This document shows, piece after piece, positions 4,409-57,089 of a stretch of DNA of 63,765 nucleotides (its first letter is position 1; the number at the start of each line of letters is the position of its first letter). A program made the translations under genes and the position numbers. The notes under the pieces were generated by a model. It searched no databases. It saw nothing but the letters and a program-made list of their open reading frames with translations, and had not been told where the DNA came from. The DNA is from Deltaproteobacteria bacterium PRO3 (lineage in GTDB: Bacteria > UBA10199 > DSSB01), in the NCBI GenBank assembly GCA_030263375.1, contig SZOV01000006.1, positions 1-63,765 on the forward strand. Reading direction: 5' to 3'.

Positions 4409-4480
4409 TTACTGGGGTTTAGCAAAGGGGATGCCAAGCTCACGAGGCTATAAATCTCTTTACAGGCCAACAATCGCACA

Positions 4481-10209: not shown

Positions 10210-10440
10210 TTTTTTCACCCTCCTTTGATGGAGCATGTCTGCATTGAAATGGATTTGATGTCCTCCGTCATCTTCTTTTTTTCATTTTCCCCTTTCTGTT
10301 CGAATTTCAATAGTCCATCGTGGTGACGGTATTGTTTTGTGAAATATCAAGACGGAATGATCGCCAAGTATGTCTTTTCGAGGGCTAGTTGGCACCTTTA
10401 AAGATAAAGCAAGAGTAGTGCCATGTTTAAGTAAAGTGCA
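10210..10440. other. intergenic
   Basis: Contains a degenerate repeat-like stretch CTCCGTCATCTTCTTTTTTT at 10263-10282 and no recognisable gene or promoter. Confidence 0.3.
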
Positions 10441-31990: not shown

Positions 31991-32088
31991 GACGGAATCT
32001 CGGGGAGGTGAAAAGGGACGCCCCTTTCACCAAATCTGCTAAGCACTTGTCAAGAGTGGGGTTTTTTGAAGGGGCTGGGTCGGAGTCT

Positions 32089-32124
32089 TTTGCTCCGTCT
32101 TACTTTTCCCCGTCTTACTTTTCT
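32089..32124 (-). repeat. dispersed repeat, class A, two units
   Basis: Reverse-strand units AGTAAGACGGAGCAAAAG (32089-32106) and AAGTAAGACGGGGAAAAG (32103-32120) overlap. No gene ends just upstream of them on that strand. Confidence 0.7.
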
Positions 32125-32282
32125 TACCTTCTCCCGCCATCTCCAAATTTTATAAATTCTGGCCTAATAATTTAAAATTTGAATTTAATTTTTATATTTC
32201 ATACAGATAAAATTAAAAATAAAATTCCTGTTAAACTAAATAATTTTAATAATTTCATTTAGTTATTTGAATTCACCAAAAC

Positions 32283-32298
32283 TGGCACAAAGCCTGCA
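32283..32298 (+). promoter_or_regulatory. sigma54 (RpoN) -24/-12 promoter
   Basis: TGGCACAAAGCCTGCA (starting at 32283) has GG at 32284-32285 and GC at 32296-32297 with exactly ten bases between, and agrees with TGGCAC-N5-TGCA. The upstream AT-rich tract would suit enhancer looping. The predicted start is 32309. Confidence 0.75.
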
Positions 32299-32308
32299 AT
32301 CTAGTATT

Positions 32309-32425
32309 GGCGTGCGTCGAAAGACGCCGCCGAGGAAAGAAAAACTCCTCGGAAAAAAACAAAATTTATAAAGTGTGCCCCCGGGTCGGAGCGGATAGAG
32401 AAATCTTCTGCTCCGATCTTTTTTT
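32309..32425 (+). ncRNA. candidate sigma54-dependent small RNA, about 117 nt
   Basis: The predicted 5' end is G32309, the first base of a hairpin GGCG-U-GCGUC-GAAA-GACGC-CGCC (9 bp, single U bulge, GNRA loop, 32309-32331). A second hairpin CCGAGGA/UCCUCGG (32330-32352) shares two bases with the first, so the two may alternate. An A-rich single strand follows (32353-32372), then the terminator hairpin (32383-32419) and U7. GGA triplets occur in and beside the stems. No known RNA family is recognised. It could also act as a 5' leader attenuator for the cyclopropane synthase, but that gene has its own -10 box beyond the terminator. Confidence 0.65.
32383..32425 (+). terminator. strong intrinsic terminator of the candidate sRNA
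   Basis: Stem of 9 bp (GGUCGGAGC with GCUCCGAUC, one GU) continues inward as GGA/UCU, a one-base U bulge, and AGA-GAAA-UCU. The total is about 15 bp with a GNRA loop, followed by T7 (32419-32425). Confidence 0.85.
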
Positions 32426-32447
32426 ATTCGCCCATCCCCATTCGCGC

Positions 32448-56774: not shown

Positions 56775-57089
56775 AGACCCTCCTGGGGAAAAGACTGGAT
56801 GCGCTAAAAAAATAGCAAGAGGGGTGCCAGAAGAGCTTAATCGATAACTTGCTGGAATAATTGTGTTATTTAAAAACAGCTCCGGGCGCCTGTGCTCAGA
56901 AAACAAAATTAAAATATTCATTTTACAATTTTTTAACGGGCGGGAACCGGTGGTCAGGCAAATCCTGGAGAACGCGACCGGTAGAGGGTCGGCGAGTCGG
57001 GGGGTCGCGGCGGACCGAAATCGAGAATGCTTGTGGTTTTTCGAAAAAGAGAGAAAAATCTTCAGAACTTATTTTCATCCGGAGGGTCT
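56775..57089. other. divergent promoter region
   Basis: 315 bp between two secreted-protein genes, AT-rich in its left half; no gene, hairpin or clear promoter pair seen. Confidence 0.4.

Follow-up and report, generated by a model that had tools for sequence, protein, structure and literature searches.

Locus and promoter architecture

Does the segment at positions 32283–32426 of the window (the whole 63,765-nucleotide stretch of DNA that was analysed) encode a small RNA, and on what would such an RNA act? The initial annotation had read it as a sigma54-dependent regulatory sRNA. We are highly confident that the segment is a real small-RNA gene, and its parts are listed below.

32145–32282, plus strand: AT-rich upstream tract, presumed enhancer or bending region
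32253–32265, plus strand: IHF-like box TTTCATTTAGTTA, a weak match to the consensus WATCARNNNNTTR
32283–32298, plus strand: sigma54 −24/−12 promoter TGGCACAAAGCCTGCA
32309–32426, plus strand: predicted sRNA, copy 'a' of three in its own genome (fold, homologues, covariation)
32309–32331, plus strand: hairpin 1, beginning at the predicted +1 (fold, covariation)
32330–32352, plus strand: hairpin 2, optional
32353–32370, plus strand: A-rich single-stranded linker (predicted fold, homologue alignment)
32371–32382, plus strand: invariant unpaired AAGTGTGCCCCC, unchanged in all family copies
32373–32382, plus strand: proposed seed GTGTGCCCCC (unique peak of leader complementarity)
32383–32426, plus strand: intrinsic terminator, with a hairpin at 32383–32419 and a T-run to 32426

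The promoter is the sole TGGCAC-N6-TGCA within the window, where 0.03 would be expected, and it departs from TGGCAC-N5-TTGCW by one mismatch (CTGCA for TTGCA). Its GG-N10-GC elements are suitably spaced from the RNA start; as the initial annotation had claimed, this spacing places the predicted +1 at 32309, exactly where hairpin 1 begins. TGGCA-N7-TGCA is present in every homologue, and the spacing between promoter and hairpin 1 is preserved among them. The genome also contains rpoN (Sigma54_DBD, E = 2.4e-65), on whose presence the sigma54 reading depended, together with about 20 strong Sigma54_activat (AAA+) domains, none of them on the sRNA contigs 6, 73 and 107.

The tract 5' of the promoter is indeed very AT-rich (about 25% G+C vs about 62% in the neighbourhood), and most homologues have such a tract. 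A motif search without prior detected a box resembling the IHF consensus in most copies, mostly 31 nt 5' of the −24 box. Eight of its nine positions were reached in 10 of 14 copies, vs none of 14 in the shifted control, the window copy's own box being a weaker match than most. A possible activator-binding site in the AT-rich tract, the palindrome ATACGTAT, is exact in only three copies; its distance from the −24 box is about 80–100 nt in L013 and L015 and greater in L030, in each case on the 5' side.

Three further near-consensus sigma54 promoters were seen in the window, at 4420–4436, 10407–10423 and 56813–56829 (minus strand). That at 4420 is directly 5' of a REP-type transposase-like gene, as are two others in the genome (G000:C5). 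Separately, a terminator-like hairpin at 32078–32110, GGGTCGGAGTCTTTTGCTCCGTCTTACTTTT, resembles the sRNA terminator stem; it is perhaps left over from a second copy, or marks where an older unit ended.

Structure and covariation of the predicted RNA

The predicted transcript, about 118 nt in length, folds at −47.4 kcal/mol vs −29.3 ± 3.5 kcal/mol in shuffles (z = −5.1; 0 of 200 shuffles as low). Hairpin 1 has the 9 bp, GAAA loop and bulged U that had been described for it. In the terminator the claimed GAAA loop, bulged U and T-run were all found, with one bulged U within a stem of 16 pairs rather than 15 and an end at 32426 rather than 32425. The GNRA caps and bulged U's hold for the window copy and fail as a general feature, as the homologues do not keep them. 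The segment encodes no protein, in line with the initial annotation, and combines its own promoter, an intrinsic terminator and a conserved structure. It also has no match in Rfam: no family reached the gathering score in the window and nothing credible appeared at E ≤ 10.

Supporting the fold, compensatory changes were detected in 15 of the 27 base pairs across 13 sequences, including 9 of 14 in the terminator and 3 of 5 in hairpin 2 where it is present. In total, 96.8% of pair cells were standard and 34 were double-change cells, where shuffles gave 9.9. These counts lean towards the covariance model, to which the alignment had been fitted. When the structure was slid as a control, about 40% of cells were paired and 0–4 pairs were compensatory. 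The covariation anticipated for homologous regions is thus present. In G007, compensatory changes give hairpin 1 a new stem (GUGUUC GAAA GAACAC), and the terminator differs in sequence, yet both still fold. The most conserved segment of the RNA is the predicted unpaired AAGUGUGCCCCC, whose counterpart in G007 is AGUGUGCCCC.

Hairpin 2 is missing in G003:C249, and G007 has a different A/U-rich stretch instead. The initial annotation had suggested that the two upstream hairpins share bases and may switch. Sharing was confirmed at two bases (32330–32331); since hairpins 1 and 2 have only these in common, a two-state switch has little support, and with hairpin 2 missing in some homologues we rejected it. 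A TGGCAC/GUGUGCC pairing proposed by RNAalifold was also dropped, TGGCAC being promoter DNA and not transcript.

Copies, distribution and genomic contexts

A search of its own genome found two further copies, on contigs 107 and 73, bringing the total to three, and four relatives carry one to three copies each; the unit thus recurs in related genera. Blast alignments start at the −24 box and end at the T-run or near it; promoter, RNA and terminator thus travel as a unit, and the flanks do not. With the covariance model, G003 gained a second copy, and another was detected in G007, a member of a different family in the same order. No copy beyond these relatives was found in a 46-genome set of the phylum, in which a weak match in G006 proved to be a different sigma54 RNA, and searches of the class and phylum confined the distribution to one order. 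A pattern scan of ~85,000 species genomes returned only this group (metagenome assemblies labelled Deltaproteobacteria) and two matches, in Sericytochromatia and Spirochaetales, that were rejected as chance coding matches. Plasmids and viral contigs gave no match.

By their neighbours the copies fall into three groups: 'a' with a cyclopropane-fatty-acid synthase gene (cfa), 'b' with epimerase-like and CoA-transferase-like genes, and 'c' with genes that we take, from sequence inspection, to be FIST-like and lipoprotein-like. The neighbours of copy 'a' are a minus-strand gene, presumably helicase-like as judged by inspecting its sequence, and the plus-strand cfa (PF02353, E = 3.7e-89). The epimerase-like gene also adjoins the G003 and G007 copies, and this locus therefore looks orthologous across two families.

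The order of copy 'a' then cfa recurs in G002, and the terminator ends about 57 nt 5' of the cfa start codon, as might be expected of a cis-acting leader or attenuator of that gene. We regard such a role as very improbable, since the other copies adjoin unrelated genes with unit boundaries unchanged and no alternative antiterminator was conserved in the covariation analysis of 13 sequences. That the unit is a dispersed repeat of mobile or REP-like type, or arose by chance, and has no function as an RNA gene is barely credible. Several copies do occur in different places of one genome, but they are few (one to three per genome), two families share an orthologous site next to one and the same epimerase-like gene, the paired positions covary, and the promoter is conserved along with the RNA. 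On the genomic contexts of the copies, both the cfa attenuator and the mobile repeat were rejected.

Seed matches in sigma54-dependent leaders

On what, then, would the RNA act? The complement of the conserved unpaired segment, GGGGGCACAC, also occurs outside the sRNAs in a number of 5' regions; examples are 'tttGGGGGCACACctATG' (G000:C132) and 'tttGGGGGCACACtATG' (G003:C108). Across eight genomes, a sigma54 promoter followed by GGGGGCA within 75 nt was matched 16 times vs 3 times in the reversed control, and these matches include several orthologous sets with the motif shortly 5' of the ribosome-binding site. A less biased leader set comprised all 50 TGGCAY-N5-TTGCTW sites of its own genome with 120-nt leaders (reversed control, 0). 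GGGGGCA was present in five of the 50 vs 0.33 expected from local background (P about 2e-5), a count reached by 1 of 500 shuffles. The wobble complement of GUGUGCCCCC was likewise found in 5/50 leaders vs 0.2 expected, the single peak when every 10-nt window of the sRNA is compared. In G004, GGGGGCA occurred in 4 of 30 leaders vs 0.37 expected (0/500 shuffles); some of these sites are orthologous to those of G000, and the two sets are thus not independent. The full site is absent from 45 of the 50 sigma54 leaders of its own genome, G007 shows no GGGGGCA excess in such leaders, and among leader 7-mers GGGGGCA ranks only 90th in G000 and 13th in G004.

Alignments of orthologous leaders showed that GGGGGCAU is retained and nearby leader sequence changed, and several of the sites, located at the ribosome-binding site or shortly 5' of it, persist from one genus to another. 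The site variants (GGGGGCACAC, -CACGC, -CAUGC, -CAUAC and -UAUGC) each form 10 pairs when G-U is counted. The proposal of a regulatory sRNA is thus supported, as far as sequence goes, by the conservation of the seed and by its matches in sigma54-dependent leaders, and pairing through this seed is the likely mode of action. The target proteins tested gave no Pfam family above cut-off. Several candidate target leaders that are not behind sigma54 (upstream regions L083, L082, L064, L072 and L073) have in common the box CAACTTT-N-CCGA(TAA), which may be a promoter of ECF or sigma28 type.

We hold repression, as opposed to activation, with somewhat less confidence than pairing itself. An activating sRNA would open a leader structure that hides the ribosome-binding site. 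Compatible with this, leaders of set 2 retain GCACACUU and GUGUG(U) stretches with the potential to pair together, and those of set 1 can form, by eye, a small UGCC-GGG-GGCA hairpin. In G000:C132, G003:C108 and G007:C42, however, the sites end 1–3 nt from the ATG, which fits blocked ribosome entry, and activation seems improbable to us.

An anti-seed RNA and further sigma54 RNAs

G000:C142 (L091 2711–2949, minus strand) has a sigma54 promoter and an IHF-like box, followed by a predicted RNA, about 240 nt long, that ends in a terminator of its own. This RNA carries CCCGGGGGCACACcGGGGGCA, a 13-nt perfect complement of GUGUGCCCCCGGG. It is kept in G002 (L094) with CCCGGGGCACAC, one G fewer; in G004 (L124) the terminator and CCGGGGGCACA are kept and most of the remainder has changed. 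Both relatives retain a shorter complement, and the anti-seed RNA, with promoter and terminator, is represented in two genera. RNAs of this type contain the seed complement once or twice, and their terminator loop AACCCCGAGCCCTCTGG is conserved between genera. Judged by this complementarity, the C142 RNA is probably a sponge for the sRNA; alternatively, it may be an independent sRNA.

A separate sigma54 RNA family, seen in L127 (G000:C2:74008), L175 (G004:C38:1216) and L031 (G006:C34), shares GUGCCCC with the sRNA seed and has a conserved 3' hairpin, GTCGAGGTGTATGGAGTGCCCCTYGAT, within a long terminator. In addition, short terminated units with sigma54 promoters and no obvious ORF were observed at L191 1501 (G004:C75) and L156 926, minus strand (G000:C57). 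The former consists of a GAAA-capped hairpin, AGCCCCCGG and a terminator, and both are possible additional sigma54 sRNAs.

The anti-seed RNA also bears on another reading of the conserved linker, in which a real sigma54 sRNA family would bind a protein and titrate it in the manner of CrcZ or CsrB, the leader matches being incidental or sites for the same protein. Some sigma54 RNAs with several copies per genome do titrate a regulator, CrcZ being one, the linker is unusually invariant across 12 nt, and the match is found in only a minority of leaders. Against titration, the leaders carry the complement and not the same sequence, the site variants sit where G-U preserves the pair, and a separate conserved RNA also has the full complement. 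We therefore consider titration unlikely, and favour base pairing.

Proposed mechanism

The likeliest explanation, which we judge to be probably right, is that three sibling sigma54-dependent sRNAs act in trans by base pairing and repress sigma54-dependent mRNAs, possibly buffered by a sponge. An enhancer-binding protein would activate sigma54 RNA polymerase at the −24/−12 promoter, probably with the aid of DNA bent at the IHF-like box, and we infer a transcript that starts at 32309 and ends with the terminator at 32426. Its 5' end would be covered by hairpin 1, and the unpaired linker would present the seed GUGUGCCCCC for pairing with GGGGG-Y-A-Y-R-C elements that other sigma54-dependent mRNAs carry in their 5' leaders. 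Pairing at or just 5' of the ribosome-binding site would lower translation. As this 10-letter stretch matches the start regions of other sigma54 messages, the sRNA probably fine-tunes them, and the net circuit would be an incoherent feed-forward loop that governs a portion of the sigma54 regulon. The sigma54-dependent C142 RNA, with its exact anti-seed, would probably sponge the sRNA.

No Hfq domain was found in the sRNA's own genome, which is rated 100% complete; another chaperone, or none, must therefore serve the sRNA. More tentatively, and with some doubt on our part, the sibling sRNAs, some targets, the sponge and the GUGCCCC family (G000:C2, G004:C38, G006:C34) might form a closed Hfq-less RNA circuit, all driven by sigma54; several of its proposed members have IHF-like boxes. 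Were this true, one signal would switch the regulon on and set its translational ceiling. The named seed, target leaders and candidate sponge make the proposal testable with reporters.

Comparison with known systems

CrcZ/CrcX/CrcY and GlmY/GlmZ are sigma54-dependent small RNAs with several siblings per genome; CrcZ titrates Hfq/Crc via repeated CA motifs, and GlmY/GlmZ act through RapZ. The present family resembles them in sigma54 dependence and in the number of siblings, but no Rfam match to any of them was found here. RsaE/RoxS-type sRNAs of Firmicutes aim an unpaired C-run at G-rich ribosome-binding regions. That likeness, compared by Rfam only, is offset by differences in control, lineage and sequence, and by a specific 10-nt seed here in place of a bare C-run.

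Pxr of Myxococcus xanthus and relatives is an sRNA of about 108 nt with a predicted sigma54 promoter, hairpins and a terminator; it has paralogues in some species and a C-run, and its host is without hfq (PMC5568312, PMC5684412). In all these respects, including size class, our family is similar. However, Pxr lies 3' of the activator gene nla19/pxrR and its paralogues are in tandem, whereas the copies here are dispersed with no activator gene alongside. Within the published Pxr positions 13–33 and 48–111, compared by eye, there is no GUGUGCCCC and the terminator differs; the C-run of this published part is in the first stem-loop region, unlike the seed here. Homology with Pxr is unsupported by this comparison, though conceivable.

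The Qrr sRNAs are sigma54-dependent. In Vibrio cholerae, the siblings Qrr1–4 have one shared pairing region and a separate complementary sponge, QrrX, which is driven by QrrT (PMC9732341). The likeness to our family extends to several siblings, one shared pairing region, sigma54 control and a separate complementary sponge RNA. The family is not a Qrr member: the window gave no Rfam match at gathering score and no Qrr match at E ≤ 10, and the lineage is another one. Moreover, Qrr sRNAs are Hfq-dependent, whereas Hfq was not found here; the seed here adjoins the terminator; and sigma54 promoters also precede the targets and the sponge candidate. Found from sequence alone, the family is a new structured, multicopy group of probably sigma54-dependent sRNAs in a poorly known uncultured lineage. 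If our reading is right, it would represent control in the style of Qrr/QrrX or Pxr where no Hfq is found, and its targets would belong to the same sigma54 regulon.
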